Shown in pieces: positions 10,667 to 49,785 of a stretch of 64,000 nt of DNA (the stretch's first letter is position 1; each line of letters begins with the position of its first letter). This DNA comes from Halomarina pelagica (GTDB taxonomy: Archaea > Halobacteriota > Halobacteria > Halobacteriales > Haloarculaceae). A model generated the notes under the pieces. It was not told the origin of the DNA. It saw only the letters and a program-made list of their open reading frames with translations, and made no database searches. The position numbers and the translations under genes were made by a program. The stretch is taken from positions 1,116,001 through 1,180,000 of the forward strand of contig NZ_CP100454.1 of the NCBI RefSeq assembly GCF_024228315.1. Direction: 5' to 3'.

Positions 10667-10675
10667 CTATTTGTC
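10667..10675 (+). promoter_or_regulatory. TATA-like box of aglF
   Basis: CCTATTTGT is centred about 27 bp before the aglF ATG at 10698, predicting a leaderless transcript that starts the glycan locus. Confidence 0.5.
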
Positions 10676-10697
10676 CGGGGGCGGTGACGGACTGGAC

Positions 10698-11459
10698 ATG
10701 CAAGCAGTCGTGCTCGCGGCCGGTGAGGGGACCCGCCTGCGTCCGCTCACCGAGGACAGGCCGAAGGCGATGGTCGAGGTCGACGGGAAGCCGATCCTCA
10801 CCCACTGCCTCGAGCAACTGGTCACGCTCGGGGCCGACGACCTCTTCATCGTCGTCGGCTACCTGAAGGAGGTGATCATCAAGCACTACGGGGACAGCTT
10901 CGAGGGGATCCCCATCACCTACTGCCACCAGCGGGAGGCGAAGGGGTTGGCTCACGCGCTGCTGACCGTCGAGGAACACATCGACGACGACTTCATGCTC
11001 ATCCTGGGGGACAACGTCTTCGAGGCGAACCTCGCGGACGTGGTGCGCCGCCAGGCGGAGGACCGCGCGGACGCCGCCTTCCTCGTCGAGGAGGTGCCCT
11101 ACGAGGAGGCCTCGCGGTACGGCGTCTGTAACACGAACGACTACGGCGAGATCGTCGCCGTCATGGAGAAACCCGAGGACCCGCCGACGAACCTCGTGAT
11201 GACGGGCTTCTACACGTTCACGCCCGCCATCTTCCACGCGTGTCACCTCGTCCAGCCGTCGAACCGCGGCGAGTACGAACTCAGCGACGCGGTCAACCTC
11301 CTCATCCAGAGCGGGCGCACCATCGACGCCATCCGCATGAAGGGCTGGCGGATCGACGTGGGCTACCCCGAGGACCGCGACGAGGCCGAGCGACGGTTGC
11401 GCGAGCCGACGGAGGGGGCGACCGCCGAGGCCGACGGGGCGGGTTCCTCGGAGGAATAA
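10698..11459 (+). CDS. aglF: UTP-glucose-1-phosphate uridylyltransferase (AglF-like)
   Basis: The 253-residue nucleotidyltransferase starts MQAVVLAAGEGTRLRPLT, the nucleotide-binding signature, followed by RPKAMVEVDGKPIL. LGDNVFEANL carries the metal-binding aspartate, and VMEKPEDPPTNL and MTGFYTFTP follow. The sequence strongly resembles Haloferax volcanii AglF, which makes a UDP-sugar for N-glycosylation; the AglM-like dehydrogenase 7 kb away could use its product. The ATG at 10698 is chosen over an upstream GTG because of the promoter spacing. The acidic tail after residue 230 is variable. A 14-bp palindrome (CGGTCCGCGGACCG, 11468-11481) lies just after the stop and may help end transcription. 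Confidence 0.9.
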   Translation: MQAVVLAAGEGTRLRPLTEDRPKAMVEVDGKPILTHCLEQLVTLGADDLFIVVGYLKEVIIKHYGDSFEGIPITYCHQREAKGLAHALLTVEEHIDDDFMLILGDNVFEANLADVVRRQAEDRADAAFLVEEVPYEEASRYGVCNTNDYGEIVAVMEKPEDPPTNLVMTGFYTFTPAIFHACHLVQPSNRGEYELSDAVNLLIQSGRTIDAIRMKGWRIDVGYPEDRDEAERRLREPTEGATAEADGAGSSEE

Positions 11460-11762: not shown

Positions 11763-13202
11763 ATGAACTCGTATCCAAATATTCTACTACTCGTTCTGGA
11801 CAGCGTTCGGGCGAAGAACACGAGCGTCCACGGGCATCGTAACGACACGACGCCGTTCCTGCTCGACTTCGCCGGCGAGGCGACGGTCTACTCGCAGGCG
11901 CGAGCGCCGAGCATCCACAGCGTCGCCAGCCACGCGAGCGTCTTCACCGGTTCGCACGTCGAGGAACACGGCGTCACCGAGCACGAGTCCGGGCTGGACC
12001 CGGACGCGACGCTCTGGCACGAGTTGCGGACGGCGTTCGGCTACCGGACGGGGATCTTCTCGCCGAACCTGGTGGTGATGGAGACGTCGAACCTGAGCGA
12101 GCCGTTCGAGACGCGCGTCGGGCTGAAACGCTCGCTCGACCGCCGGCTGTACGAGACGGGCGTGAGCCCGAGCGACTTCGACGAGCACGTCTCCGCGGGG
12201 TCGTACCTGCGCGCGAGCCTGGCCGACGACCACCCGATCCAGTCTGTCCTCAACGGGGTCTACTACCGGTACGGCTCGCACGCCGACCGGGCGCACGACC
12301 CCGAGACCGAATCGGCGGAGGTCTACCTCGAGGAGTTCCTCGAGTGGGCCGAGGCGGAGTCCGGCCCGTGGGCGGCGTGCGTCAACCTCATGGACGCGCA
12401 CTACCCCTACGTCCCCCGGGAGGAACACGACCGCTGGGGCGGGCCGAACCTCCGCCGCGTCCAGGAGGACATCACCGGGACGCAGTCGCGGCAGTTCCTC
12501 ACCGGCCGTCCCTGGGGCGAACTCGCGGCGCTCGAGTGGCTCTACGACGGCTGCATCCACCAGATCGACGCCGCGCTTCGCGGGTTCGTCCGCGACCTCA
12601 AGGAGGCGGGGCTGTACGAGGACACGCTGCTCGTGATCACGAGCGATCACGGCGAGGGCTTCGGCGAACGGAGCCTCGTCACGCCGCGGGTCCGCCACGT
12701 CGATCACAGCTGGGGGATCGGCGAGGAACTGACGCACGTGCCGCTCGTCGTGAAGGCACCGAGCCAGCACCGGGGCCGTCGCGTCGACTCGCCGGTGAGC
12801 CTCACCGACTTCAGGGGGGTCGTCGAGGGGTACCTCGACGGCTACGCCGGCGGCAACCCGTTCGCCGACCTGGGGCGCGAGGAGGTCCTCGCCTCGACGT
12901 TCCGCGTCCCCGCGCCCGGCGACGTGCTCCCCGACGGCGTCGAGCGGACCGACTACGTCGGTCCCTGGCGGGCGGTGTACCAGCCCCAGGACGGCGTCGT
13001 CTACAAGTACGTCACGCACGGGACCGACGAGGCGACCGTGCACGTGCGCGACGCGCAGACCGCCTCCCTCGCCGAACGGGACCAGCCGGGCATCGTCGAG
13101 GAGGTCTTCGACAGGATGGAAGCGAGCGACGTCGCCACCGGGGCCCGGGACCTGAGCCGCGACGTCGAGGCGCAACTCGAAGACCTCGGCTACATGCGCT
13201 GA
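11763..13202 (+). CDS. Sulfatase/alkaline-phosphatase-fold protein
   Basis: The 479-residue protein begins with the metal-binding strand NILLLVLDSVRAKN and contains the later metal sites LMDAHYPY and VITSDHGEGFGE, the hallmarks of the alkaline phosphatase superfamily. At the nucleophile position it reads RAPSIHSVASHASVFTG: the CxPSR cysteine that true sulfatases convert to formylglycine is absent, so a serine or threonine is probably the nucleophile. That favours a phospho- or sulfo-group transferase or hydrolase acting on glycan rather than a classical sulfatase. No signal peptide is seen. It is still GC-rich, unlike the genes downstream. Its place between aglF and the sugar transferase argues for glycan modification. 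Confidence 0.82.
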   Translation: MNSYPNILLLVLDSVRAKNTSVHGHRNDTTPFLLDFAGEATVYSQARAPSIHSVASHASVFTGSHVEEHGVTEHESGLDPDATLWHELRTAFGYRTGIFSPNLVVMETSNLSEPFETRVGLKRSLDRRLYETGVSPSDFDEHVSAGSYLRASLADDHPIQSVLNGVYYRYGSHADRAHDPETESAEVYLEEFLEWAEAESGPWAACVNLMDAHYPYVPREEHDRWGGPNLRRVQEDITGTQSRQFLTGRPWGELAALEWLYDGCIHQIDAALRGFVRDLKEAGLYEDTLLVITSDHGEGFGERSLVTPRVRHVDHSWGIGEELTHVPLVVKAPSQHRGRRVDSPVSLTDFRGVVEGYLDGYAGGNPFADLGREEVLASTFRVPAPGDVLPDGVERTDYVGPWRAVYQPQDGVVYKYVTHGTDEATVHVRDAQTASLAERDQPGIVEEVFDRMEASDVATGARDLSRDVEAQLEDLGYMR

Positions 13203-13254
13203 CGCCCGCCACCCGCCGCCCGCTCGCCGGTGCGGTCTCTCGCCCCATCACCTC

Positions 13255-13430
13255 TCGCCGTTCCCGCTTCTTCCCGTCCCCGTCTCTCCCCGCCCCTCCC
13301 CTTCTCCTTCTCTCTCCTCCCTTTCCGCTTCTCCTTCTCTCTCCTACCCTCCCGCTTCTCCGTTTTCGCTCCCTCCTTTCACTTCCCGTTTCTCGCCCCG
13401 TCCTTCGCTTCTCCTGCGTCTTCCCCTTCG
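13255..13430. repeat. Homopyrimidine/homopurine tract with a 27-bp-spaced direct repeat
   Basis: On the plus strand, the 60 bases from 13261 contain only four purines and the next 60 only five. Inside it, CTTCTCCTTCTCTCTCCT occurs at 13301-13318 and again at 13328-13345. Such mirror-like polypurine tracts can form triplex DNA; that consequence is an inference. Confidence 0.8.
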
Positions 13431-13510
13431 CGTCCGCGCGTCCGGTGAGCAAGCCCGCCGCGCGAACCGTCCGCCGCGCGAGCGGTGTTCTCCAAGGGCC
13501 CGGGATAGTT

Positions 13511-13571: not shown

Positions 13572-15005
13572 ATGGTAGGGGCGTGGCGGTACAGGCTGGG
13601 CAGCGTCGGGGTCGTCGCCGGGGTCACGGCGCTCGCCGTCGTCGTCGCGAACGCCCCCGCGGCCCAGGGGCTGGCGACGTCGCTCCCGCTCCTGTCGCGA
13701 CTCCCCGCGACGACGATGCGCGAGGCGGCGCTCGCGCCGGCGATCCTCACGACGGTCGCCGTGGTCTCGCTCGCGTTCCTCCCCCTCTTTCGCCCGAAGC
13801 GCCGCCGGATCCTCGACGCCGTCACCCTGACCCACCGGCGACTGCTGGTGGCGGCCGCGGGTCTTGCGGCCGTGGGCTACTTCGACTACACCTATCGACT
13901 GCCCCGGACGACGCTCCTGCTGGTGACGGGGACGCTGTCCGTCGCGCTGCCCGCCTGGTTCGTCTCGGCGCGACCGCGGCCGAGCGGCGACGGCGACCGC
14001 GCCGTCGTCGTCGGGGACGACCCCGAGGGCGTGGCGGCGATCCTCGCGGCGACCGAACTCGAGGTCGTGGGCTACGTCTCCCCCCCGGCGCAGTTCCACG
14101 ACGGCTCCCCCGTTCGGCCGTCGTTCGCGACCGACGGCGGGGTGGCGACCCCCCTCGACGCGGGGCGACGCGCGCTGGCCGACCTCCCCTGCCTCGGGGC
14201 GCTGTCTGACCTCGAGTCGGTGTTCGCCGACTACGACGTGGACACCGCGCTGCTCGCGTTCGCGCGGCCCGACCGGGAGCAGTTCTTCGGCACGCTCGAC
14301 GCCTGCGACCGATTCGGCGTGAACGCGAAGGTCCACCGCGAGCACGCAGAGAGCGTGCTGGTAGCCGGTCGCGGCGGCGAGCTGGTCGACGTGGACCTGG
14401 AACCGTGGGACTGGCAGGACCGGATGCTGAAGCGGCTTTTCGATGTGGTGTTCACGACCGTCGGGCTGGTGGTGCTGTTGCCCGTGATCGCGGTGATCGT
14501 CGTTGCCGTGAAGCTCGACAGCGAGGGACCGGTGCTCTACTCCCAGGAGCGGACGGCGGAGTTCGGAGGGACGTTCACCGTCTACAAGTTCCGGAGCATG
14601 GTGCGGGACGCAGAGAGGGAGACGGGAGCCGTGTTGAGTGCGGAGGACGACGGCGGGGTCGACCCGCGGGTCACCCGCGTCGGGGCGTTCCTCCGGCGGA
14701 CGCACCTGGACGAGATCCCGCAACTGTGGTCGATTTTAGTGGGGGACATGAGCGTGGTCGGGCCGCGGCCCGAACGGCCGGAGTTGGATACTGATCTTCA
14801 GGAGGATGTCGGTAACTGGAGGCGTCGGTGGTTTGTAAAGCCTGGACTCACCGGATTAGCACAGATTGAAAGCATGTCCTCATCGGAACCAGATCGGAAA
14901 TTACAACTTGATATTAGATACATTCGTGCCCGATCATTTAATTCTGATATTAAAATAATACTCCGTCAAATCTGGACCGTTGGAAAAATCATCGTATCCG
15001 AATGA
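13572..15005 (+). CDS. Polyprenyl-phosphate sugar-1-phosphate transferase (WcaJ/bacterial sugar transferase type)
   Basis: The 477-residue protein would attach the first sugar-phosphate to a lipid carrier at the membrane. Four hydrophobic segments lie in residues 5-135, followed by a soluble Rossmann-like region ([11 protein letters not shown]) and a fifth hydrophobic stretch near 295-318. The catalytic domain follows: [34 protein letters not shown] and [10 protein letters not shown]. This is the usual polytopic layout of exopolysaccharide-initiating transferases. Codon use changes abruptly at about base 14784, just after VGPRPERPE: upstream is GC-rich, and the last 70 codons are AT-rich like the next genes. 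The gene therefore looks like a recombinant of two alleles. The reading frame is intact. Confidence 0.88.
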
Positions 15006-15107: not shown

Positions 15108-16565
15108 ATGAATAAAAGCCTTACCGAACAGTTTTCGGTTGCTTTTCTTGGTGGTATCTTCGGCCGTGCTCTCCGATACAGCTTCAGCCTTATTATTGCT
15201 CAAGGTTTAGGTCTTGATGCACTCGGTCTTTTCGCGTTTGGATTGGTCTTGCTTAAAGTTGGTAGCGTCATCGCCCGTGTTGGATTTGATACTGCAGCGC
15301 AAAAATTCGTTCCAATATATCAGAATCATGGAGATAACCCCAGAGTGACGGGGATTATCTTGGTTTCAATTTTCACTCCGCTTCTGGTCGGTGTCATCCT
15401 CAATTTACTTTTCTACGTCACTTACGAACAAGTGCAGGCAGTCATCGGATCAAACTTTACTGCCACCATACCATTGTTTATCGCTGGAATTCCATTATTT
15501 TCGGTAATGATGGTCTGTATGGCTGCCACACGTGGCTTCAAAGACACGAAATATGCGGTTATCATTCGAGATATCGGCCAAACTGGTAGCGGTTTCGTGT
15601 TTATTGTAATCGGTGCATCTGTGGTTTCAGACTTCACGATCACCATTATCGGCTATCTCGCCTCACTTTTCGTTGGCATTGGGCTCGGGATCTTCTCTTT
15701 ATACCGGCTTGGTGGTTTTAACCGAGTAAGGCAGCCAATATTTGAGATTCGCGAAAACTTCCGGTTCTCACTTCCTGTTGCAATCGTCGCTGTTACTCAA
15801 TATTTAATCTCTTGGACGGATGTCCTCGTTCTGGGATTATACTCTTCGCCAACTCAACTCGGCTGGTATCAAGCAGCATTTCAGACCACGGTTTTGCTCG
15901 CAGTTGTTCTGGAATCGGTAAATGCGATTTTTCCATCTGTTGTTGCAGAATATTCTCATACTGGTCAAATTAAGCGACTGAAACGTGTCTATGTTGCTGC
16001 TACGAAGTGGATCACCTATCTCACGGTTCTCGGTTGTTTGTTCTTGATTATTTATAGGACAGAGGTCCTCTCTATTTTCGGTGAACCGATTCAAGTCGCA
16101 CAATCAGCACTCGTTATATTGAGTGTTAGCCAATCAATGGCCGCAGTCGTTGGTCCAGCGGGTTACCTACTCTCAATGACCGGTCACGAACGCGTTGAAC
16201 TACTGAATACTGTTTCAGCTTGTCTTATAAATATCGCCTTGAATCTAGCTTTGGTCCCAGCCTCTGGAATTGTCGGGGCTGCTATCGCAACTGGGATTTC
16301 TTTGACACTATTGAACATACTTAGAGCCGTTGAGGTATGGTACTTTTTCAGAATTATCCCGTACTCGGTTAACTATTGGAAGGGGTTTATGGCGATCTCA
16401 GGTTCAACTGCATTGATGACCGTTATTAATGTGCTTGAACTTCCTCTTTCTACGCTTGAACTTCTTCCGCTGGTTAGTATTGGATCACTACTACTATTTT
16501 TCATACTTTACCGGTTCCTTGGAATGGACACAAGCGATGCCATTCTTTTCAAATCAATTTTATGA
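15108..16565 (+). CDS. Polysaccharide flippase (Wzx/AglR-like, MATE-like fold)
   Basis: This 485-residue, very hydrophobic protein has about 12-14 predicted membrane helices and the layout of oligosaccharide flippases. It includes an N-terminal FGRALRYSFSLIIAQGLG and the pattern LGLFAFGLVLLKVGSVIARVG, here cited in parts as LGLFAFG and VIARVGFDTA. It would move a lipid-linked glycan across the membrane. The gene is AT-rich compared with the window average and follows the recombinant sugar transferase. A second, diverged flippase sits at 45124-46530, so the genome window encodes two export routes or two versions of one. Confidence 0.85.
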   Translation: MNKSLTEQFSVAFLGGIFGRALRYSFSLIIAQGLGLDALGLFAFGLVLLKVGSVIARVGFDTAAQKFVPIYQNHGDNPRVTGIILVSIFTPLLVGVILNLLFYVTYEQVQAVIGSNFTATIPLFIAGIPLFSVMMVCMAATRGFKDTKYAVIIRDIGQTGSGFVFIVIGASVVSDFTITIIGYLASLFVGIGLGIFSLYRLGGFNRVRQPIFEIRENFRFSLPVAIVAVTQYLISWTDVLVLGLYSSPTQLGWYQAAFQTTVLLAVVLESVNAIFPSVVAEYSHTGQIKRLKRVYVAATKWITYLTVLGCLFLIIYRTEVLSIFGEPIQVAQSALVILSVSQSMAAVVGPAGYLLSMTGHERVELLNTVSACLINIALNLALVPASGIVGAAIATGISLTLLNILRAVEVWYFFRIIPYSVNYWKGFMAISGSTALMTVINVLELPLSTLELLPLVSIGSLLLFFILYRFLGMDTSDAILFKSIL

Positions 16566-16635: not shown

Positions 16636-17565
16636 ATGGGTACACTAAGTTGGACTATGCGCACGCTTGAACGTCTGAGGTCCCGGAATATAACCGCTCT
16701 TGAACAATCTGGTTACGAATTATACCAAGGCCTCTGTTCCCGTACGGGCGCGCTTTATCAATCCCATCACCCGAATGGAATGAATATCTATGAGGAAGAC
16801 TGGAGTGTTCTTATTATCCTTGATGCCTGTCGGATTGATCTGATCGCTGAACTTGCAAGTCAGTACGACTTCCTCTCGAACCCAGGGACGTTTACTTCAC
16901 TTGGAAGTTCATCTGAGGAGTGGATGTCGAAGAATTTTACGAGAGACTATGATGGTGAGATGGCCAACACGGTGTATATTTCGGGAAATCCGTTTACCGA
17001 CCGTGTTCTAGATGATGACTCATTTTTAGTTTTAGATGAAGTTTGGCGATATAACTGGGATGAATCTCTCGGTACAATTCGACCTCGGCCAATTACAGAC
17101 CGTGCCATCACCTTGGCTCGTGAAACAAATCCTGATCGAATGATCGTTCACTATATGCAACCCCATTTCCCTTCTATCGCACAGCCGGACTTCGGATCAA
17201 GGATGGACCCCAATGATTTTGACGGTATTTGGAAGTCTGCTTGGACCGATCTTCAAACAGGGGTAATCTCCGAAGAAGCATTGTGGGACGCATACCTCCA
17301 AAATCTCCACTGTGTCTTAGATGACGTTGCCCTCTTGCTCGCGAATCTCGATGCAGATTCTGTTGTAATTTCAGCGGACCATGGTAATGCGATAGGAGAA
17401 TGGGGATTATACGGGCATCCTGCACATGTTCCACTTCCCTGTCTTGTAACGGTTCCATGGTACACAACTTCGAGTACCGATACAGGTGAGTATAAACCGA
17501 CGACAACAGCCAGTTCAACTACTGGTGAAGTGTCTGACCAACTCCGCCGTCTCGGATATTTATAG
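16636..17565 (+). CDS. Small sulfatase-fold (alkaline phosphatase superfamily) protein of the glycan cassette
   Basis: The 309-residue protein carries the N-terminal metal strand VLIILDACRIDL, a candidate nucleophile region SLGSSSEEWM, and the C-terminal metal ligands SADHGNAIGE and YGHPAHVP. This arrangement is that of sulfatase-like hydrolases and phosphoglycerol or phosphoethanolamine transferases, without the formylglycine cysteine motif. No signal peptide is seen. It lies in the AT-rich cassette between the flippase and the O-antigen-ligase-like gene (14 bp upstream of the latter). It may add or remove charged groups on the glycan. It is clearly different from the GC-rich sulfatase-fold protein at 11763-13202. 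Confidence 0.78.
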   Translation: MGTLSWTMRTLERLRSRNITALEQSGYELYQGLCSRTGALYQSHHPNGMNIYEEDWSVLIILDACRIDLIAELASQYDFLSNPGTFTSLGSSSEEWMSKNFTRDYDGEMANTVYISGNPFTDRVLDDDSFLVLDEVWRYNWDESLGTIRPRPITDRAITLARETNPDRMIVHYMQPHFPSIAQPDFGSRMDPNDFDGIWKSAWTDLQTGVISEEALWDAYLQNLHCVLDDVALLLANLDADSVVISADHGNAIGEWGLYGHPAHVPLPCLVTVPWYTTSSTDTGEYKPTTTASSTTGEVSDQLRRLGYL

Positions 17566-17579
17566 GTATCCTCCCAATA

Positions 17580-18836
17580 ATGTCTCCCAAGATCGCCAAG
17601 TATCTCTACCTCCTGTCAATTGGATTCTTGTTTTATCGAGGTCCTAAATTTGGTCTTGTAAAATACGCTGACATTGCTATTATCCTAGCTGCCGGAGCAT
17701 ACCTTATCTCTTATCGCCGGAAGATTCGTCTTCCAGCTACTATTCCATACCTCTTGACGACATTTTTTCTCTCCATGCTTATTTCTCTCCTCCATTCCCC
17801 TCTCCCATTATCGTCAAACAGTATATTTGATATATTCCGATATGTTCTTGTTTTCGTACTGTTTGGTATGACTTTTCACTACGTTTCTACTGCTAAAATC
17901 CGGTTCACGGTTCTTCGTAACACATTTTTATTAGCCGGCCTCCCAAGTATTTCACTTTCTATTGGAGCTTTTGCTCTTTTTCAAGTTGGGTATACCCCGG
18001 TCTGGGTAATATCGTTCCTTCATAGGCCGACCGAAGCTAGAACAATGCCCCTGTTCTATGATCCGAACCATTATGGGAGCGTCGTGACTATCGGCTATCT
18101 CTTTGCTTGTCATTACGCAATAGCACATCTTAGAAAGGAACCGCATTCTGTCTTATCCGTTTCTATAATTATTCTGCCAGCACTTTTTGCATTTGCTGCG
18201 TTCACCACTGGCTCACGGACGGCAATAGGAGTTGTATTTACTACTACCATACTTCTTACGGCTATATTCATCATTCAAGCAGTTCAAATTTCAGTACTTC
18301 GTCATGTACTTCCTTCTGCTGTTGTGTTCGGTGTTCTCCTTCTTATCGGATACCAGCTGTGGTTACCCGACGCAATTCAGTTCGTACTTTTATTACTTCG
18401 ACTAGACTTCCGAAACGGTGGCGTTCTTACTTCTCTTAATATCCGGTATTCTTTGTGGAAAGGGGCCTTTCGAACGTGGATCGACCACCCGCTATTCGGC
18501 GTAGGACCTAATAACTATATCCACTATATCCCCTATCTTCCTGATGAGTGGCGTCCAGAGCGTGCAAATTACCCGCACAACATGTACTTAGGATTGCTTG
18601 CAGAATTGGGGGTTACTGGGTTTATTTTAGCAGGAACTATTATTGGGATTACTGCGAAACGAGTCTCTAAGGTCGCATTTCACTGGCCAACCTCACGGAA
18701 CGTGATTACGTTTACACTCTTACTTGCGATGCTTGAATGGGGCTTCTTCCTCGACATCTTTACCTCACGACGTCTTTGGTTCATATTTGGGCTTGCGCAT
18801 GCTATCGGATCGCAAGAAATAGACTCTGGTAACTAA
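17580..18836 (+). CDS. O-antigen ligase/polymerase-like membrane protein
   Basis: The 418-residue protein has about ten hydrophobic segments. Between the later ones lies a loop with the arrangement seen in the WaaL/Wzy family: the region FRTWIDHPLFGVGPNNY followed by NYPHNMYLGLLAELGVTG with its conserved histidine. Such proteins polymerise or ligate lipid-linked glycan on the outer face of the membrane. With the flippase and the initiating transferase, it makes a Wzx/Wzy-like set in an archaeon. The gene is AT-rich. Whether it polymerises repeat units or ligates them to an acceptor cannot be told. Confidence 0.78.
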   Translation: MSPKIAKYLYLLSIGFLFYRGPKFGLVKYADIAIILAAGAYLISYRRKIRLPATIPYLLTTFFLSMLISLLHSPLPLSSNSIFDIFRYVLVFVLFGMTFHYVSTAKIRFTVLRNTFLLAGLPSISLSIGAFALFQVGYTPVWVISFLHRPTEARTMPLFYDPNHYGSVVTIGYLFACHYAIAHLRKEPHSVLSVSIIILPALFAFAAFTTGSRTAIGVVFTTTILLTAIFIIQAVQISVLRHVLPSAVVFGVLLLIGYQLWLPDAIQFVLLLLRLDFRNGGVLTSLNIRYSLWKGAFRTWIDHPLFGVGPNNYIHYIPYLPDEWRPERANYPHNMYLGLLAELGVTGFILAGTIIGITAKRVSKVAFHWPTSRNVITFTLLLAMLEWGFFLDIFTSRRLWFIFGLAHAIGSQEIDSGN

Positions 18837-18878
18837 CGGAACATATATGTGTCGGTGTTTGTTATCTTCAACAGAACG

Positions 18879-19778
18879 ATGGCTCCTCTCGTCTCGTATA
18901 TTATCGCTACTTACAACCGAAAAAACGATCTTGTGGAGTGCATCAAGTCAGTACTGGAACAGGAATATCGCCCTCGCGAAATAATCATTATCAGCAATAG
19001 TACTGACGGAACTGAGGGGCTTTTCGAATTTGACGGAGAATTAAACAAAGATTGTATTAAATTCCACCAATTTAATGGTCGAATGGGGGTGGCAAAGGCT
19101 CGCAATGTAGGCTATGTGATTGCAGCTGGAGATATCTTCGTTACTTTAGACGACGATGCAATCTTGACAGACTCACAAGCTACCAACCAAATAGTAGATC
19201 TATTCGAATCATACGACAGGATAGGAGCACTTGCTTTTAGGAGTATAAATTACTACACAGGTAAAGTAGATACTGCGGAGTTCCCTTATCGAAATAATGA
19301 TCGGCCTTTTGATGAGCCGTTTGAAGCCACATATTTTGTTGGTGTAGGGAATGCATTAAAGCGCTCCGCAGTTGATGAGGTTGGTCTTTACCCAGATACA
19401 TTCGAATACGGATTCGAAGAACTTGACATCTCATTACGGTTGCTTGATGCCGGGTATCGAATACGATACGTTCCGTCGGTCACGGTTAAGCACAAACAGT
19501 CTCCACATGGACGCTTTCCTGGACGGAAAGTCGCTCAGAAACGCCTTGAGAACCGTATCCGTGTTGGAGTTCGACATCTCCCATGGAAGTACGTTGTGGT
19601 TTCATCTGTCCTTTGGACGGCATATGCATTCTATCTCTCTAAATTTGATCCCCGGCCTGTGATACGTGCCCTTTACGAGATTTATGCGTCATGGAATATA
19701 TTGATGTCAGATAGGAATGTCATAAGGGAGGATACTATTCAAAAGCTCGTAGCAAACTCTGGCCGTCTCTACTACTGA
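18879..19778 (+). CDS. Family 2 glycosyltransferase
   Basis: The soluble 299-residue enzyme begins MAPLVSYIIATYNRKND, the normal GT2 start. The nucleotide-sugar site contains GMGVAKARNVG in the form RMGVAKARNVG and the metal-binding DDD in VTLDDDAIL. EYGFEELDISLRL matches the ED motif holding the catalytic base. A GTG at 18849 would add ten residues but breaks the family-typical N terminus, so the ATG at 18879 is preferred. It belongs to the AT-rich cassette and would add a sugar on the cytoplasmic face. The donor and acceptor are unknown. Confidence 0.85.
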   Translation: MAPLVSYIIATYNRKNDLVECIKSVLEQEYRPREIIIISNSTDGTEGLFEFDGELNKDCIKFHQFNGRMGVAKARNVGYVIAAGDIFVTLDDDAILTDSQATNQIVDLFESYDRIGALAFRSINYYTGKVDTAEFPYRNNDRPFDEPFEATYFVGVGNALKRSAVDEVGLYPDTFEYGFEELDISLRLLDAGYRIRYVPSVTVKHKQSPHGRFPGRKVAQKRLENRIRVGVRHLPWKYVVVSSVLWTAYAFYLSKFDPRPVIRALYEIYASWNILMSDRNVIREDTIQKLVANSGRLYY

Positions 19779-19812: not shown

Positions 19813-20991
19813 ATGATATCGGAGCTGTTTACCGTTGTCCTCATCATCAGTCTAAGTCTCTGTGTGTATGCCTATATTGGCTATCCAGTAGTGCTCTTGG
19901 GTCTTATTTTCTTTAGCACAGCCCTGCCCGATATTGACGAGAATACGGACTTCTTACCGTCGGTAACAATGGTAGTAGCTGCTCATAACGAGGCTACCAT
20001 AATTAAACAAAAATTAAGAAATATTGAACAAATCGATTACGAAGGTGAGTTTAATTGTCTTGTAGTTTCGGACTCAACGGACAATACTGATACTCTCGTG
20101 GAACGTTTTAAAGGGCCCAGAACCTCTCTTCTTTCACTTGGGGAGCGAAAGGGTAAGAGTTACGCACTGAACGTTGCTGCTTCAACGGCTAACGGTGATG
20201 TACTCGTCTTCTCTGATGCAAACACGATGTTTGATTCTGATGCTCTCTCTACCCTTATCAAACCGCTTTCAGATCAATCCATTGGCTGTGTCACCGGATC
20301 GCTTCGGTTGATTGACGCCCAAAGCCAGACAATAGAGAGTATCTATTGGCGATACGAACTCTGGCTTCGCCAACTTGAAACTGATCTTGGAACGACTGTT
20401 AGTATTAACGGAGGTATGTTGGCGATCCGGCGTAAAGACTTTGACCCCCTTCCTGAATGTGCGGTCACTGACGATATGGTAACTGCATTACGGGAAGCGT
20501 CTACTGATCGGCGGATTGTTTTTGTGCCGGGGGCAACGGCAACCGAGTATACTGCCGGTGGACTTTGGGAGGAATACTCTCGACGGAAAAGAATTGGAGT
20601 TGGAAACTACCAGACTCTTGTCTGGTTCGCCAACCTACTTAATCCAGCTCATAGCTTGACAGCTTTCGAATTCGTTTCGCATAAAGTACTTCGGTGGTGT
20701 ATGCCTTTTCTCCTTGGATCTCTCACGTTGTCTAACGTGATCTTGGTCATTCTTTCGTCTTCCCCTGTATTTGATGCGCTTATGGTATTACAATCTGTAT
20801 TTTATCTACTCGCTGCTATTGGTATGATTAGTTCCAATCTCCGGAGTAAACCAATATTCTCGATGCCATCCTACTTTGTAGTTATGAACATTGCGTTTAC
20901 TGTCGGGATTTGGAAATTTCTGATGGGTGTAACCCACGATGTCTGGGAAGCAACACCGCGAGTAAACGACCAAGTAAAGGATCGCGACTAA
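19813..20991 (+). CDS. Membrane-anchored family 2 glycosyltransferase
   Basis: The 392-residue protein has an N-terminal membrane helix (LFTVVLIISLSLCVYAYIG), a GT2 catalytic domain and three to four C-terminal helices. The catalytic motifs are VTMVVAAHNEA, the DxD-like FSDANTMFDSDA, TDDMV, and a (Q/R)RxRW-like segment EEYSRRKRIGVGN. The layout resembles processive or polyprenyl-phosphate-using GT2 enzymes. It is the last gene of the AT-rich glycan cassette. The switch back to GC-rich sequence comes within the next 200 bp. Confidence 0.83.
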   Translation: MISELFTVVLIISLSLCVYAYIGYPVVLLGLIFFSTALPDIDENTDFLPSVTMVVAAHNEATIIKQKLRNIEQIDYEGEFNCLVVSDSTDNTDTLVERFKGPRTSLLSLGERKGKSYALNVAASTANGDVLVFSDANTMFDSDALSTLIKPLSDQSIGCVTGSLRLIDAQSQTIESIYWRYELWLRQLETDLGTTVSINGGMLAIRRKDFDPLPECAVTDDMVTALREASTDRRIVFVPGATATEYTAGGLWEEYSRRKRIGVGNYQTLVWFANLLNPAHSLTAFEFVSHKVLRWCMPFLLGSLTLSNVILVILSSSPVFDALMVLQSVFYLLAAIGMISSNLRSKPIFSMPSYFVVMNIAFTVGIWKFLMGVTHDVWEATPRVNDQVKDRD

Positions 20992-21271
20992 AATATTTGG
21001 TATTCGAGGAACGTACGAGGTACCTTCTGACTTTATTATCTACTTGGTAAGTTTCTAATGGCTTCTAACTCGTGAAAACCGCGATATGTACATGTTTCCG
21101 GGGATATTACTCACGTCCATTCTCTCTTCTCTCTCCACCCGACCAGACCGATGATTTGTTTTGTTCCCTATAGCTCGCCGACGTAGCACCGCCATGAACA
21201 GGTACGCCCCCTCTACCACTTCTACTCCCCCGAAACCGTCATGTACCCTCCGCCAATCGCTCACAACGATC

Positions 21272-22411
21272 ATGGTTTCGGAACGCGAGTACGACGTAAT
21301 CGTCCTCGGTGTGGGTGGGATGGGGAGCGCCGCGGTCTACCACCTCGCGCGCCGCGGCGTCGACGTCCTCGGCATCGAGCGGTTCGACGTCCCGCACGCG
21401 ATGGGGTCGTCCCACGGCATCACGCGCATCATCAGGCGGGCGTACTACGAGCACCCGTCGTACATCCCGCTGATCGAGCGGGCGTACGACCTGTGGGACG
21501 ACCTGGCGGAGGAGACCGGCCGGCCGGTCATCCACCGGACGGGGTCGGTCGACGCGGCCCCGCCGGGGAACGTCGTCTTCGAGGGGTCGCTGCGCTCCTG
21601 TGCGGAGTACGACATCCCCCACGAGGTGCTGACGGGCGCGGAGCTGGCCGAGCGGTTCCCCGGCTACCGGCTGCCGGAGGACTACCGGGCGCTCTACCAG
21701 CCCGACGGGGGGTTCGTCGTCCCGGAGCAGGCCATCGTCGGGCACGTGGAGGCCGCGGGGGCCGCGGGGGGTGAGGTGCGCGCCCGCGAGCGGGTCACCG
21801 GGTGGGAGGAGACGGCCGACGGGGGCGTCCGCGTCGAGACCGACCGGGGGACCTACCGCGCCGACCGGCTGGTCCTCGCCGCGGGCGCGTGGAACTCCGC
21901 GTTCGCCGACGAGCTGTCGGGGCTCGCGGTCCCCGAGCGGCAGGTGCTCGCGTGGTTCCAGCCGGAGACGCCCGCGACGTTCCGCCCGGAGAACTTCCCC
22001 GTCTGGAACGTGAGCGTCCCGGAGGGGCGGTTCTACGGCCTACCGATCTACGACGTGCCGGGGTTCAAGCTCGGGAAGTACCACCACCGCGACGAGGAGG
22101 TCGACCCGGACGACTGGAACCGCGACCCCGAACCGGAGGACGAGCGCCTCCTGCGGGAGTTCACGGCGAAGTACTTCCCGGACGCCGCCGGGCCGACCAT
22201 GCGCCTCGCCACCTGCATGTTCACCAACTCCCCGGACGAGCACTTCATCCTCGACACGCTCACCGACCACCCGCAGGTGGCCGTCGGCGCGGGCTTCTCC
22301 GGCCACGGCTTCAAGTTCGCGAGCGCGATCGGCGAGATCCTGGCCGACCTCGCGCTCGACGGGACGACCGACCACCCCATCGACATGTTCGCCCTCGATC
22401 GATTCGAGTGA
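21272..22411 (+). CDS. Monomeric sarcosine oxidase / N-methyl amino acid oxidase
   Basis: This 379-residue FAD enzyme would oxidise sarcosine to glycine and formaldehyde with release of hydrogen peroxide. The FAD motif VLGVGGMGSAAVYHLARRG is at the N terminus. SSHGITRIIRRAYYEHP follows the family pattern, and the cysteine in ATCMFTNSPDEHF is the covalent flavin attachment site of monomeric sarcosine oxidases and N-methyltryptophan oxidases. GAGFSGHGFKFA is the second flavin contact. The ATG at 21272 is chosen because upstream codons lack family similarity. It fits the betaine degradation genes that follow, as the last demethylation step. Confidence 0.86.
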   Translation: MVSEREYDVIVLGVGGMGSAAVYHLARRGVDVLGIERFDVPHAMGSSHGITRIIRRAYYEHPSYIPLIERAYDLWDDLAEETGRPVIHRTGSVDAAPPGNVVFEGSLRSCAEYDIPHEVLTGAELAERFPGYRLPEDYRALYQPDGGFVVPEQAIVGHVEAAGAAGGEVRARERVTGWEETADGGVRVETDRGTYRADRLVLAAGAWNSAFADELSGLAVPERQVLAWFQPETPATFRPENFPVWNVSVPEGRFYGLPIYDVPGFKLGKYHHRDEEVDPDDWNRDPEPEDERLLREFTAKYFPDAAGPTMRLATCMFTNSPDEHFILDTLTDHPQVAVGAGFSGHGFKFASAIGEILADLALDGTTDHPIDMFALDRFE

Positions 22412-22621: not shown

Positions 22622-24295
22622 TCAATCGTCCTCCGACGCGTCTCCCCCGGGTACCTCGCCCGACGACCGCCCGCCGATGAGCATGTCGTCGCCGCGGACG
22701 GCGGCACCCTCCTGGACGAGGACCCGGCCGTGGGTGCTGGAGAACTCCCGGATCATGCCGTAGACGGCGACGAGGCCGACGGCCGCGACCGGGCCCCCGG
22801 TGATGATGGCGGCCTGCTGGAGCGCCTCGGTGCCGCCGATGACGACGAGGATGGAGGCGACGAGGCCCTGCAGGACCCCCCAGACGAGACGGTTGAGTTC
22901 GGAGGGGCTCTCCTTTCCGCCGGTGGTCAGCATCGCGATCCCGAGCGTCGAGGAGTCGGCCGAGGTCACGAAGAACGTGATCACGAGCAGGAAGAACAGC
23001 GCCGACAGGAGTTCGCCGGCGGGCAGCGCCTCGAAGAGCGGGTAACCCGACGCCGCGATGCCGTAGTTCGGGTCGTTGATGACGCCCAGGATGTCGGCCG
23101 CGCCGCTCGCCTGCAACCGCATCGACGTGCCGCCGACGATCATGAACCACGGCACCGTCGCCAGCGTCGTCGCGACGACGCCGACGAAGGTGATCTCCCG
23201 GATGGTCCGCCCCCTGGAGATCTTCGCGAGGAAGATGCCGGAGAACGGTGCCCAGGCGAACCACCACGCCCAGTAGAAGACGGTCCACGCGCCGACGAAG
23301 CCGGCGTCGCCCGATCCCGTGCCCGTGAACAGGCTCATCGCGACGAACTCCTGGAGGTAGGTGCCGACCGCCTGCGTCCCCAGGTTCAGGACGAAGAACG
23401 GCGTGCCGACGACGAACACGACGACGGCGAGCAGCACGAACACGATCACGTTGAGTTGCGAGAGCCGCTTGATGCCCCTGTCGACCCCCGAGACGACCGA
23501 GAGCGTGAAGATCACCGTCACGCCCGTGATCGTGAGGATCGTCCCCAGGTCGCCGAACGAGTAGCCGAGTTCGTACTCGACGCCGGCGAGCAACTGCTGG
23601 CCGATGAAACCGAGCGAGGTGGCGATGCCGCCCATCGTCCCGAACACCGCGACGACGTCGACGGCCTTCGCCGTCAGGCTGTCCTCTAAGTTGTCGACGC
23701 CGACGAACGGGGCCAGCAGGGTGGAGAACCGGAACGGCGCGCCCCTGTTGTACGCGAAGTAGCCGATCGGAACGCCGACGATGAGGTAGGCGCTCCACGC
23801 CGAGATCCCCCAGTGGAAGAACGTGTACTGGAGCGAGCCGAGCATCTTCGCCCGCGCCGAGGCGTCCGGCCCGGTCAGCGGCGTGCCGTTCCCGAAGTGG
23901 TAGATCGCCTCCGCCGGCCCCCAGAACACGATGCCCGCGGCGATCCCCGCCGAGAAGAACATCGCGAAGTACGTCAGGAAGCTGTGCGCCGGTTCGACGT
24001 CCTCGCCGCCGAGCTTGATCCGCCCCCACGGCCCGACGATGAGGAACGCGGTGAAGGCGACGAAGATCAGCATCGACCAGAGGTAGAACCACGACAGGTT
24101 GCTCCACAGCCACCCGTTGAGGTCGCCGATCAGCTTCCCCAGCAGGTTCACCTGCCGGCCGTCGACCGTGACCGTCGGACTCACCGCGTAGGCCACGATG
24201 AACGCGACGGCGACGGTCACCCCCGCGCCGAACACCAGCGGGTCGATCTCCTCTCTGAACTCCTCGATTCTGCCCCGAGTTCGTGATTGGCTCAT
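22622..24295 (-). CDS. BCCT-family betaine/carnitine/choline transporter
   Basis: The 557-residue protein has about 12 membrane helices and the BCCT family signature WAWWFAWAPFSGIFLAKIS. The tryptophan-rich helix near residues 165-190 (FFHWGISAWSAYLIVG) also matches. BCCT carriers bring in quaternary amines such as glycine betaine, driven by sodium or protons. The start at 24295 is preferred over an upstream ATG at 24379 because conserved sequence begins at MSQSRTRG. Its position between sarcosine oxidase and the betaine-demethylating genes points to betaine as substrate, used as osmolyte and nutrient. A TATA-like TTCTTATC lies near 24457-24466, so a leader of about 140 nt is possible. Confidence 0.88.
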   Translation of the reverse strand: MSQSRTRGRIEEFREEIDPLVFGAGVTVAVAFIVAYAVSPTVTVDGRQVNLLGKLIGDLNGWLWSNLSWFYLWSMLIFVAFTAFLIVGPWGRIKLGGEDVEPAHSFLTYFAMFFSAGIAAGIVFWGPAEAIYHFGNGTPLTGPDASARAKMLGSLQYTFFHWGISAWSAYLIVGVPIGYFAYNRGAPFRFSTLLAPFVGVDNLEDSLTAKAVDVVAVFGTMGGIATSLGFIGQQLLAGVEYELGYSFGDLGTILTITGVTVIFTLSVVSGVDRGIKRLSQLNVIVFVLLAVVVFVVGTPFFVLNLGTQAVGTYLQEFVAMSLFTGTGSGDAGFVGAWTVFYWAWWFAWAPFSGIFLAKISRGRTIREITFVGVVATTLATVPWFMIVGGTSMRLQASGAADILGVINDPNYGIAASGYPLFEALPAGELLSALFFLLVITFFVTSADSSTLGIAMLTTGGKESPSELNRLVWGVLQGLVASILVVIGGTEALQQAAIITGGPVAAVGLVAVYGMIREFSSTHGRVLVQEGAAVRGDDMLIGGRSSGEVPGGDASEDD

Positions 24296-43978: not shown

Positions 43979-45127
43979 ATGAGCCATCCTGCTGTGGCGT
44001 ACTACGTACCGATAATCTCTGACGTGTGGAGTACGACGCGATACCAACATGCGATGGCGATCGCAACTCTCGAAAACGATACGACGTTAATAACAGAGCG
44101 TTCCCCGCCAGAATCGATTCGAACCGAGTTCGACCACGTTCATGTATTATCTTCACTAAAAACTTCAGGCGTACCGTACAGTCAGTTCCCTGATTCGAGG
44201 ACCATCGAAGTCCTCTCTCGGCCGCTCCGAGCGGCCAAGGTCGCAAAGCGACGGCTTGGTCCTGATGGAGTGTACGTCACTACGTTTCACTATATCCCTG
44301 CGCTCTCAGGTTGGATGTCTGGCCTGAAATGGGTGGCTGACATCTACGACGATCCGACCCAGTACCTCTTGGCGAATCCTGAATCGATTACTCATCGGTT
44401 ACGTCTGCCCGTCTTAAAATATCTCCTCAACAGAGCGGATATCGGCTATAACGTTTTGCATCCTACTTCCCCGAACACATTTGGAACAGAAATCGAGTAC
44501 GGCATTAACGGTGCACCGGTCGAGGTCTTCGCCCCGAGAAAAAAAGCCTCGCGTCCCCCACTACAATGCGTTGTCGTCGGAAAGACCGAACCGGAGCAGG
44601 GGATAGACCTGCTCATGCGCGCGCTACGATTAGTAGAGGGTCCTGTTCACGTCGATATTTATGGGGAACCGATCGAAGCGAGTCGTAAATTAGCCGTGAA
44701 ATACGATCTAAACGACGTGGTAACTTTCCACGGCTGGGAACCCCACGAAACTATCATCGAAGCGGTGAGCAGGGCTCATGTCGGTCTCTCTCTTCTTCCT
44801 AGACGAACCGATTGGACGTACTCGTATCCGATCAAGATCGGCGAGTATCTGGCCGCCGAGACGTTACCGGTTGCGACCGGCCTGCCAGCGACACGTCGAC
44901 TGGCCGGCGATGCCGGCATCTACGTGGCTCCCGATCCAGAAGAGATCGCGGATCAGCTCGACGCTCTTGCATCGATCGATGACGAACAGTTCCTGTCTTA
45001 CCGTCAGACGTGTAGACAGCAGGCAAAAAAGATCGATTGGGCGGATGAACGGGAGCGATTCGTAGCGGCTATTCTCGGCCGCAGTTCAACATCGATCGAG
45101 GAAATCTCTCGGCGCACGTACTCATGA
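43979..45127 (+). CDS. Family 4-like glycosyltransferase
   Basis: The 382-residue soluble protein has two Rossmann-like halves. The C-terminal half contains the GT-B donor-site pattern: VVVGKTEPEQGIDLL, then VTFHGWEPHETII, then YSYPIKIGEYLAAETLPVAT. The N-terminal half is poorly conserved, as usual for acceptor domains. It would add a sugar to a lipid-linked glycan. Base composition is AT-richer than mutS next door, and the stop overlaps the ATG of the flippase gene (ATGA at 45124-45127), so the two are coupled. Confidence 0.8.
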   Translation: MSHPAVAYYVPIISDVWSTTRYQHAMAIATLENDTTLITERSPPESIRTEFDHVHVLSSLKTSGVPYSQFPDSRTIEVLSRPLRAAKVAKRRLGPDGVYVTTFHYIPALSGWMSGLKWVADIYDDPTQYLLANPESITHRLRLPVLKYLLNRADIGYNVLHPTSPNTFGTEIEYGINGAPVEVFAPRKKASRPPLQCVVVGKTEPEQGIDLLMRALRLVEGPVHVDIYGEPIEASRKLAVKYDLNDVVTFHGWEPHETIIEAVSRAHVGLSLLPRRTDWTYSYPIKIGEYLAAETLPVATGLPATRRLAGDAGIYVAPDPEEIADQLDALASIDDEQFLSYRQTCRQQAKKIDWADERERFVAAILGRSSTSIEEISRRTYS

Positions 45128-46530
45128 ATCTCCGAAACGCTATTGGGAAAGTTCTATCGGCGAACGTGCTCAGTTCGGTGCTCAGCTTTACAGGCCTCGC
45201 ACTATTCGCCCGAGAACTTGGTCCGTCTGGACTTGCCCCGTTTTTCCTGTTCCAAGCGGCGGTTGGTCTCCTCGGTCTCCTGGCGAATTTCGGACTAACG
45301 AGTGCGGTAGAAAAGCGGATCTCGGAGAGACAGCACGCCGGGAGGACGCTATCTACTGCCATTCTTTTGAAAGCATTGCTACTGATTCCTATCACCGTAG
45401 GAGTCATTGCGATCCGACCGTCGATTAACGAATATATTGGTGCGAACGTCGCGCTCCTACTCGTCGGCGGCATCATTGTTCAACAATTTGGCACCCTCGG
45501 GTTAAAGGTCATTAATGGGGAACTACGGGTCGGTGACACGGCAGTAATCATTCTCGGCCAGAAAGTCGTCTGGGTCGGACTTGGATGGATACTCATCGAA
45601 GCCAACTACGGCGTTTACGGCATTATCTGGTCGTTCATCGTTAGCTGGTCGGTCGTGATTGCGTGGACCATCGTCCGATCGGACACTGATCCAAGCAAAC
45701 CGACGGTTTCTATGGCCCGTTCGTTGTTATCATTCGGGGGTTACGCGGCGATCGGTTCCGTTGGTGGGTACGTCTACGGATGGCTTGACGTTGCGATCCT
45801 CGGGTTGTTCGTAGCACAGAAGGACATTGGTATTTATGAAGTCACGTGGCGAGTCGCTGGATTCGTCATGATCTTTCAAACTGCCGTTCGAACTGTCATC
45901 TTCCCTCAAATCAGTCAGTGGAACGCTACCGATAATACCCAGCAGATTGAGTCGTTGCTTGAGCGAGCACTAGTCCCGTCGTTACTTTTTGCTATCCCCG
46001 CGCTCGTGGGGGGGATCTTGGTCGGCGGTAACGCACTCTCCGTCATATTCGGTCCTCGGTTTAGCGCCGGCTACCTCGTCCTGATTATATTTTTAGTCGA
46101 GAAAATCTTCCGAGTTATTCACCTCACGCTCAGTCCTACCCTGTTTGCCATCGATGAACCTCGCTTCGGATATCGCGGTAGCGCTGTCGCTGTCGTTGCG
46201 AATATCATTCTCAACTTCACACTTATCCCTGAATTCGGTATCATAGGTGCCGCAATCGCGACGGCGACGTCGTCTCTTCTTGGTGCTGCGGTGAACATCT
46301 GGTACCTTACCCGATTTATATCTATTAGACTTCCAGTGAATGATATCCGGTGGATGATCGTCTCCTCGTCGGTGATGGCTCTCATTGTTGCTATCGCCGA
46401 TGCAGTGATCAAAGTCAACGGTCCGATCCTCCTCGGATTAGTCGTATCGTTCGGCGTCGTCTCCTACGGAATTTGCATTCTCGTTTACACCCCGATCCGA
46501 TCGGAGGTTCAGAGACTCGTTGGGGGCTGA
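45124..46530 (+). CDS. Second polysaccharide flippase (Wzx/AglR-like)
   Basis: The 468-residue protein has about 12-14 hydrophobic helices and the flippase pattern FARELGPSGLAPFFLFQAAVG at the N terminus, cited here as FARELGPSGLAPF. TLIPEFGIIGAAIATATSS lies near the C terminus. It differs in sequence from the flippase at 15108-16565. It is co-translated with the upstream glycosyltransferase and would export the lipid-linked product. The next gene downstream is cut by an insertion element. Confidence 0.84.
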   Translation: MNLRNAIGKVLSANVLSSVLSFTGLALFARELGPSGLAPFFLFQAAVGLLGLLANFGLTSAVEKRISERQHAGRTLSTAILLKALLLIPITVGVIAIRPSINEYIGANVALLLVGGIIVQQFGTLGLKVINGELRVGDTAVIILGQKVVWVGLGWILIEANYGVYGIIWSFIVSWSVVIAWTIVRSDTDPSKPTVSMARSLLSFGGYAAIGSVGGYVYGWLDVAILGLFVAQKDIGIYEVTWRVAGFVMIFQTAVRTVIFPQISQWNATDNTQQIESLLERALVPSLLFAIPALVGGILVGGNALSVIFGPRFSAGYLVLIIFLVEKIFRVIHLTLSPTLFAIDEPRFGYRGSAVAVVANIILNFTLIPEFGIIGAAIATATSSLLGAAVNIWYLTRFISIRLPVNDIRWMIVSSSVMALIVAIADAVIKVNGPILLGLVVSFGVVSYGICILVYTPIRSEVQRLVGG

Positions 46531-46607
46531 ATAGTGATATACACTCCAGAGATAAACTATTATTAGGGATCAAACCAATATGATTTTACTAACGGTAGTA
46601 GTATTAT

Positions 46608-46860
46608 ATGTTGGGCAATAAATACAAAATATTGGTTTCGGCTCTGGTCAACTGTGTAACTCTCGGTATCGTCGCGACGAATCTCACTGGCCAACTATTT
46701 CCGGGATTCCACCTGTCAATATTGGCGTGCGCCATCCTCCTCGTAACATACACACTCTACGTCGATGTGCCTGACTACACCGTTACGCTGTTTACTGTAG
46801 TTCTCTTGGCAGTCGTTTATCGTCTCTATATCTTTGGTTCGCTCTTGCGTAGGAGATTGT
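46608..46860 (+). pseudogene. Truncated membrane protein gene, interrupted by an IS1595/ISH4-type element
   Basis: The frame opens at ATG 46608 and encodes three hydrophobic segments (KILVSALVNCVTLGIVATNL, LSILACAILLVTYTLYV, TVTLFTVVLLAVVYRLYIFG). It then runs into the left end of the insertion element near 46840, where the hydrophobic character stops and the last ~50 codons are out-of-frame IS sequence. It looks like the N terminus of a polytopic membrane enzyme of the glycan cassette. No matching C-terminal part is found beyond the element, so the rest has been lost. The original function cannot be named. Confidence 0.6.
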
Positions 46861-46900
46861 TGATACTGCAGAGCGGTCGCTGCGGAGTCGAAGAGGACAA

Positions 46901-46922
46901 GGGCACCGCGTCAGCGGTGCCC
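46901..46922 (+). promoter_or_regulatory. Perfect hairpin in the transposase leader
   Basis: GGGCACCGC and GCGGTGCCC form a 9-bp stem with a GTCA loop, ending 7 bp before the transposase ATG at 46930. It would hide the region where ribosomes bind and could limit transposase synthesis from outside transcripts. Confidence 0.65.
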
Positions 46923-46929
46923 GACACGA

Positions 46930-47814
46930 ATGATTCCGCTAGATGTGTTTGGGTCGGAATCGGTCGCAGCGGACCTGTTGGCGCAGGTTCGCTGGCGTGA
47001 CGGTGTTACCTGTCCTCGCTGCCGTTCTGACCGAACGGTCAGAAACGGCAGCTACAGAGAGTTTCAGCGGTATCTCTGTAAGAATTGTGACCGCACGTTC
47101 AACGACAAGACGGGCACAATCTTTGCTCACTCGAAGATCGCGCTCCGCCGGTGGTTGTTCTCGATCTACGCGTTTCTCCGGTTTAACACCAGTCTCCGCC
47201 AACTACAGTGCGAAATCGAGGTAACACACAAGACGATGCACCGGCGCATCGAGCGCTTCGCCAGAGCGCTCGATGCGCCTTCCCTCGATCTCGTTGGTCC
47301 GGTTGAAATCGACGAAGTGTACGTCAACGCGGGGAAGAAAGGCCGCGAGCGCGACCAGGAGTCGCGCTCGCGTGGCCTGTCCACGCGCGGGCGAGGTTCG
47401 TACGATGGCGACAAGCCACCCGTGTTCATAATCGCTGATCGCGGGACCGGACAGCGGTACGTGATTCCAGCGAAAGCCGCCGACGAATCGACGATTCGAC
47501 TCCTCCTTGCTGACCGCAAAGAGGAGTCGCTCACGGTCTATACCGACGGCTTTCGAGCGTACGAACCGCTCGAAGACGACGACGCATTCGACCGCGAATA
47601 CGTCGTCCACGGCGACGGCGAATACGCCGATGAGGAAGTTCACGTCAACACCTGCGAGAGCCACGCGTCGCTGACGCGACGGTGGCTCTCGCCCCATCGA
47701 GGCGTCTCGAAAGACAAGTTGACGCAGTATCTCAGAGCGTTCCAACTACGTCGGGAACTGTTTCGGAAACCCGGTCGAGACGCTCTCAAACACGCTGTTC
47801 GAGCGACGCTGTGA
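46930..47814 (+). CDS. IS1595-family (ISH4-type) transposase
   Basis: The 294-residue protein begins with a zinc ribbon (CPRCRSDRTVRNGSYREF, then YLCKNCDRTFND) followed by a helix-turn-helix region and the DDE-type (ISXO2-like) catalytic domain, with PVEIDEVYVNAGKKG and LTVYTDGFRAYE supplying acidic residues. A C-terminal segment with HASLTRRWLSPHRGVSKDK, cited as LTRRWLSPHRGVSKDK, is family-typical. It appears full-length and may be active. The start is chosen at 46930, just after a hairpin. Confidence 0.9.
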   Translation: MIPLDVFGSESVAADLLAQVRWRDGVTCPRCRSDRTVRNGSYREFQRYLCKNCDRTFNDKTGTIFAHSKIALRRWLFSIYAFLRFNTSLRQLQCEIEVTHKTMHRRIERFARALDAPSLDLVGPVEIDEVYVNAGKKGRERDQESRSRGLSTRGRGSYDGDKPPVFIIADRGTGQRYVIPAKAADESTIRLLLADRKEESLTVYTDGFRAYEPLEDDDAFDREYVVHGDGEYADEEVHVNTCESHASLTRRWLSPHRGVSKDKLTQYLRAFQLRRELFRKPGRDALKHAVRATL

Positions 47815-47833
47815 AATCAACAATGTGCTACGG

Positions 47834-49613: not shown

Positions 49614-49785
49614 CGGCACTCTGATTTACTTGGTTGAATCTGGCTTTGTCATTGATACGCTGCGTCAACACCATCCTCGCAAATCATACGGACCACCTAC
49701 TAGATTACCATCAGGCATCTATTGGCAGAATATTCTCGCACTGAAAAGGACTTTCGCTGAGGAAGGGCTATTTCTGGACGTTTAA
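49603..49785 (+). CDS. Possible small hypothetical protein or remnant
   Basis: A 60-residue frame starts at a GTG 11 bp before the end of the upstream gene and lies in the +1 frame relative to it. The predicted protein (for example SGIYWQNILALKRTFAEEG near its end) has a protein-like composition but no known motif. It could be a small gene, a frame-shifted tail of the upstream protein, or a remnant of a lost gene. Support is weak. Confidence 0.3.
   Translation: MVTSGTLIYLVESGFVIDTLRQHHPRKSYGPPTRLPSGIYWQNILALKRTFAEEGLFLDV

Follow-up and report, generated by a model that had tools for sequence, protein, structure and literature searches.

Evidence for a replacement-type surface-glycan island in Halomarina pelagica with its left seam inside the initiating sugar transferase gene

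Results

The window analysed here, a stretch of 64,000 nucleotides from the genome of Halomarina pelagica (G000), holds what we take, with a probability of about 0.9, to be a genomic island of the replacement type, devoted to a surface glycan and joined to the resident DNA, on its left side, within the initiating sugar transferase gene; the left seam was most likely made by a crossover in a conserved stretch of that gene. The gene shows an abrupt compositional step, and only one half of it matches its homologue in the related species Halomarina halobia; the two genomes share the flanks on both sides and carry non-homologous cassettes between them.

The initiating transferase

The transferase gene (13572-15005, plus strand) encodes 477 amino acids in a frame that stays intact across the step, as the sequence-only reading had stated. 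The product matches PF02397 (Bac_transf) above the Pfam cut-off over residues 287-470 (E 7.9e-60, profile positions 1-177 of 179) and has GPRP at residues 397-400; D380, E381 and G397-P398-R399 are invariant across 38 aligned relatives. With an AlphaFold model of mean pLDDT 86, a Foldseek comparison of the catalytic domain returned WbaP (8t53, E 6.6e-15) and PglC (8g1n, TMt 0.77), the TM value against the whole WbaP chain being low (0.37). Sequence and model together indicate that the protein is very probably the enzyme that starts a lipid-linked glycan, with WbaP and PglC as its closest solved relatives. It has PF02397, the D-E dyad and GPRP in common with the WbaP-type polyprenyl phosphoglycosyl transferases (PDB 8t53, 9s7s; PglC 8g1n), which are its top matches in both sequence and structure; unlike those structures, it has an N-terminal region without sequence match, and a second catalytic class among its relatives, described below, lacks the second proline of GPRP.

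A compositional step inside the gene

Third-position GC content (GC3) is 0.93 up to codon 405 and 0.36 thereafter. A switch from GC-rich to AT-rich codons had been proposed at about 14784, and this agrees well with both measures that we obtained: the maximum-likelihood GC3 changepoint lies at 14787 (2-lnL support set 14772-14787; likelihood ratio, LR, 110 against 15 for the best of 1000 permutations), and the step in identity to H. halobia falls between 14777 and 14789. Once Met and Trp codons are omitted the LR becomes 116, the highest value among the 33 ORFs of at least 300 aa in the window (runner-up 46) and among 86 homologues (runner-up 64, in H. halobia), and above the maximum of 77 found in 191 control genes taken from upstream flanks. 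The AT-rich codon use was also said to run on into the flippase and glycosyltransferase genes, and it does: the 0.36 of the transferase 3' end is followed by 0.41, 0.41, 0.40, 0.41 and 0.43 in the five next genes, against 0.94-0.97 in the flanking genes.

In the H. halobia transferase the switch to AT-rich codons comes further along the gene, near codon 423, where KPGLTGLAQ is encoded. Apart from this one and a small number of weaker steps at other places in the gene, no step like that of the window was seen in the other full-length homologues (n=86). The idea that such steps are a family-wide feature was rejected, as an LR above 25 occurs in 7 of 86 homologues and in 11 of 191 controls (Fisher p 0.44); since the homologues are not significantly above the controls, the step is not a general property of the gene, and composition alone is a weak detector.

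Comparison with Halomarina halobia

Our key comparison genome, Halomarina halobia PSR21 (G004, NZ_CP119992.1), belongs to the same genus and carries the same locus. Amino acid identity between the two transferases is 90-91% over codons 1-405 and 57% over codons 406-470. We accordingly divide the window gene into a resident part (13572-14786, plus strand; codons 1-405; 90% identical), comprising the N-terminal region, D380-E381 and GPRP, and a putatively imported 3' end (14787-15005, plus strand; codons 406-477 and the stop codon). At the DNA level the two genes differ at 14777, are identical over 14778-14788 and differ next at 14789, the first difference of AT type, so that the left junction is confined to the interval 14778-14789 (plus strand). 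Identity to H. halobia on the left side is 83-95% up to 14788, and about 59% over the remainder of the gene. The fraction of identical codons among identical residues is 0.83 for codons 1-281, 0.79 for codons 282-405 and 0.29 for codons 406-470, and because the fall from 0.79 to 0.29 is synonymous, relaxed constraint on the protein alone cannot account for the divergence. Among 88 pairs of genes with catalytic-domain identity of at least 0.85, only the window and H. halobia have a C-part identity below 0.8 (0.57).

The sequence-only reading had called for relatives that share one half of the gene only, and H. halobia is such a relative, sharing codons 1-405 and the left flank and neither codons 406-477 (57% aa) nor the cassette. 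Separate trees for the codons before and after the switch were also proposed there. The tree of the C-part, whose 66 columns are too few, does not reject the pairing of G000 with G004 (AU p 0.65), and on codons 282-405 a single clade of the four Halomarina genes is likewise not rejected (p 0.18). The case for exchange thus rests on the divergence jump, the synonymous jump and the flanks, and not on topology.

The cassette and its flanks

Left of the transferase lie two resident genes on the plus strand, each 83% identical to its H. halobia counterpart: a nucleotidyltransferase (NTP_transferase, 10671-11459; PF00483, E 8e-44) and a sulfatase-family protein (11763-13202; PF00884, E 9e-29). The segment between the latter and the transferase (13203-13500) is strongly pyrimidine-rich and poorly conserved, and differs in H. 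halobia. The cassette itself, also on the plus strand, consists of a flippase (Polysacc_synt, 15108-16565; PF01943, E 2e-14), a sulfatase-like protein with a weak PF00884 match below the cut-off (16636-17565; E 0.0015), a membrane protein of the Wzy_C/O-antigen-ligase kind (17580-18836; PF04932, E 1.5e-19) and two family 2 glycosyltransferases (18849-19778 and 19813-20991; PF00535, E 1e-19 and 2.5e-16). The right junction is placed at 21223-21224: homology with H. halobia restarts at 21224, at 95% identity and 48 bp before the start codon (21272) of a resident FAD-dependent oxidoreductase (DAO, 21272-22411, plus strand; PF01266, E 2e-56; 95% to H. halobia).

Between the two seams lie 6435 bp in the window and about 8.9 kb in H. 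halobia. The two cassettes are unrelated and contain the same kinds of genes: each has a Polysacc_synt flippase, glycosyltransferases, a protein resembling a phosphodiesterase or sulfatase, and a Wzy_C-like protein, which in H. halobia scores below the Pfam cut-off. Such an arrangement is the trace expected of allelic exchange of a glycan cassette. The surface glycan is probably made by a Wzx/Wzy-like route. The locus thus combines three features of replacement islands: equivalent but non-homologous content at the same place, conserved flanks on both sides, and borders free of the marks of illegitimate or site-specific recombination. For the raised synonymous divergence expected beside such borders the picture is mixed, identity to H. 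halobia being 83-86% near the island and 91-95% further out on the left flank, and 95% at the very border on the right. The right flank is itself mosaic, with a stretch of 71% identity (22742-24137) between two stretches of 95%. By eye, a second AT-rich island (43979-49960) is visible in the window beside a mutS-like gene, containing a flippase-like protein (45124-46530), a glycosyltransferase-like protein and a transposase-like ORF (46930-47814).

Position of the left seam

Across the 86 homologues, the 20-codon DNA windows of highest identity (mean up to 0.78) have their first codon at 374-383. The resulting block, codons 374-399, encodes a motif given as 25 residues, and the seam of the window sits at its 3' edge, just past a conserved stretch of 29 residues in the transferase. 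Because DNA identity stays high wherever a protein motif is conserved, the crossover may lie somewhat earlier in the motif than the visible step, its exact point not being fixable. In the AlphaFold model residue 405 falls at the start of a helix (403-412) that follows the strand and the loop with GPRP; as modelled, the Asp380-Glu381 dyad and the GPRP loop come from the resident part, and the KPGLTGLAQ segment and the last helices from the imported one.

The transferase gene is a recurrent left border of a variable cassette, in other genera as well. Comparison of each gene with its closest congeneric relatives showed similarity kept upstream and lost downstream of the transferase 3' end in the pairs G002/G007 (Halomarina), G026/G116 and G026/G117 (g20) and G062/G059 (g4); in most Haloarcula pairs it is the downstream region that is conserved instead. 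Since the step in H. halobia comes later, both Halomarina lineages would have been replaced and the ancestral state is not seen, and at least two exchanges had the transferase gene as their left border.

Origin of the seam

We propose that the resident flanks were kept and the variable cassette between them exchanged. Incoming DNA would have carried its own transferase gene adjoining its own cassette, and a crossover in the conserved stretch would then have left an in-frame hybrid, in which the resident N-terminal part, the catalytic Asp-Glu and the GPRP loop are joined to the last 72 residues of the donor's enzyme. The hybrid is presumably active. The sequence-only reading had already proposed a crossover in a conserved stretch with a whole glycan cassette swapped; the swap is borne out by the half-match to H. 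halobia, the shared flanks and the unrelated cassettes, and its homologous character at the left seam is something that we infer from the anatomy of the junction, no donor having been found. The donor would have been haloarchaeal. A search with the cassette DNA in 392 genomes of the order gave nothing close (best 65% over 480 bp), and the flippase protein, searched in the 392 genomes and plasmids, gave nothing closer than 44-49% aa, in other families of the order. At none of the 11 loci of its nearest relatives does a transferase lie within 1.5 kb of the flippase, so those loci are not donors of the junction. For the C-part of the transferase, the best match in 391 genomes of the class was about 64% aa.

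The seam could also have formed in two steps, an older cassette swap having been joined further downstream and a second swap or small conversion having then placed an edge at codon 405. The later compositional edge of H. halobia would fit such a history, as would the internal patches of the transferase gene that have been exchanged alone in Haloarcula. GC3 is, however, low throughout, from codon 406 to the end of the fifth cassette gene, which makes a single import the simpler account, and we consider two steps unlikely. Far less probable is the entry of a mobile element of the integrase type that restored the 3' end of the gene it entered, as some islands in tRNA or housekeeping genes do. The imported part does restore a complete reading frame, as such elements would, but we found no direct repeat joining the two borders, no integrase in the cassette and, at the right border, no transferase 3' end displaced or left over; in H. 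halobia the same flanks enclose a different cassette and not an empty site.

We regard as scarcely tenable the view that nothing was exchanged inside the gene and that a faster-evolving 3' end drifted towards the composition of its AT-rich neighbours. It is true that, in most pairs of genes, conservation is lower in the C-part than in the catalytic core. Yet synonymous identity falls together with protein identity, the GC3 step is confined to about a dozen bases, the same-class control pairs described below show no such fall, and the adjoining cassette is itself non-homologous; as a full explanation this view is refuted. An assembly chimera or contamination joining two genomes at 14.79 kb, for which an estimated genome contamination of 4.55% might speak, is equally hard to credit given that the resident flanks on either side align to H. 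halobia in unchanged order, that the frame is intact on a contig of 3.5 Mb, and that H. halobia independently has an AT-rich cassette at the same place and a step nearby.

Two classes of catalytic module among relatives

The seam of the window is not unique, and sequence comparison indicates that the transferase gene is mosaic throughout the family. A survey of 86 Haloarculaceae-type transferase genes from 13 genera revealed two classes: class P (63 of 86 genes), with motifs of a ten-letter type and about 22 residues in the stretch 344-365, and class A (the other 23), with GPRA-W-EE and about 16 residues there. Both classes are present in 9 of the 13 genera. The number of class changes required on trees is 15-16 for codons 1-281, 15 for codons 282-338 and 1 for the module after codon 343, and at least 12 cross-class pairs are independent and on well supported branches. 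Mutual information between class and residue is about zero for positions 1-343, jumps at 344, right after KFRSM, and falls again past about 440. Judged from these alignments and trees, the class of the catalytic module (codons 344-440) appears almost unlinked to the separately inherited N-terminal part and to have been exchanged among lineages on many occasions.

Class A enzymes, for example L037 and L039 (in G002 and G007), keep the catalytic Asp-Glu but are missing the second proline of GPRP, a residue typical of the enzyme family.

Local comparisons bear on how the classes came to be mixed. In Haloarcula G063/G065 and in the g2 pair G027/G112 the flanks on both sides are collinear (97-98% covered), and the difference is confined to the 3' half of the gene, together with a few hundred bases after it in G063/G065. 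Synonymous identity falls in the closest cross-class pairs (Haloarcula, p 7e-5, 2e-3 and 1e-3; g2 pair, 0.03; g13 pair, 0.03) and shows no fall in 17 same-class controls. Convergence as the origin of the two classes is therefore rejected for the closest pairs, in which the synonymous fall points to exchange; in older pairs synonymous sites are near saturation, and there the conflict between trees alone supports it.

Several genomes hold further copies. In G075 the copy in the main locus is of class P and one at another place is of class A, which offers a possible internal source. A tandem, broken second transferase copy with stops is present in G080 (G080:C33:1479-4370), and in G122 a transferase 3'-end fragment (G122:C6:188299-188824) lies about 16 kb away on the other strand.

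The difference between classes is not to be confused with the seam of the window: the transferases of the window and of H. halobia both belong to class P, with a seam some 60 codons beyond the class junction.

Discussion

Exchange of flexible genomic islands of the replacement type by homologous recombination has been described before, including in Haloquadratum walsbyi (Lopez-Perez et al. 2014, PMC4033161). The island reported here resembles those in its constant locus, its conserved flanks, its equivalent but non-homologous surface-glycan clusters of differing size and the lack of marks of illegitimate recombination. It differs from them in that the left seam could be placed, to about 12 bp, within a catalytic gene, where it has left a hybrid initiating enzyme, and in that our comparison is between species and the identical island was not found in another lineage.

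Haloarchaeal surface loci diversified by recombination also include the cell-wall island GI1 of H. walsbyi (PMC4535781) and the glycosylation clusters of Haloferax (PMC5867893), where within-gene recombination was analysed in aglJ, aglD, aglB and S-layer genes. As far as the available portions of these two reports go, no initiating PF02397 transferase is described in them as a seam; in the window, by contrast, part of such an enzyme's catalytic domain belongs to the exchanged unit. In serotype switching at the pneumococcal cps locus the border genes act as breakpoints (PMC5850285), but that system is bacterial and operates within a species, whereas the window is haloarchaeal, the comparison is between species and the seam lies inside the initiating transferase. 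Our literature search, whose incomplete coverage makes it no proof of novelty, returned no report of seams inside a haloarchaeal PF02397 transferase or of the exchange of two module classes.

The exchange of surface-glycan islands is therefore known, with the seam usually placed only somewhere in the flanks. In the window the seam has been located to within about 12 bp inside the glycan-starting enzyme, and the resulting natural hybrid is open to experimental testing. Across the family, the pattern of classes suggests that conserved catalytic motifs also serve as handles for recombination. We lean, with some reserve, towards seeing the haloarchaeal initiating transferase as a two-part gene, in which a lineage-bound N-terminal part has been recombined repeatedly with one of two exchangeable classes of catalytic module, the crossover usually falling in KFRSM (codons 339-343) and sometimes in GPRPERPEL or KPGLTGLAQ. 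If this holds, the seam of the window is a further variant, one that took the cassette along. Exchange of the module may allow the first glycan sugar to be altered while the pathway as a whole is kept. We would guess that the two classes differ in the sugar they use, which, if true, would explain why only the catalytic half moves, and the family-wide pattern makes it directly testable, in harmless halophilic archaea, whether the exchanged module sets the first sugar.
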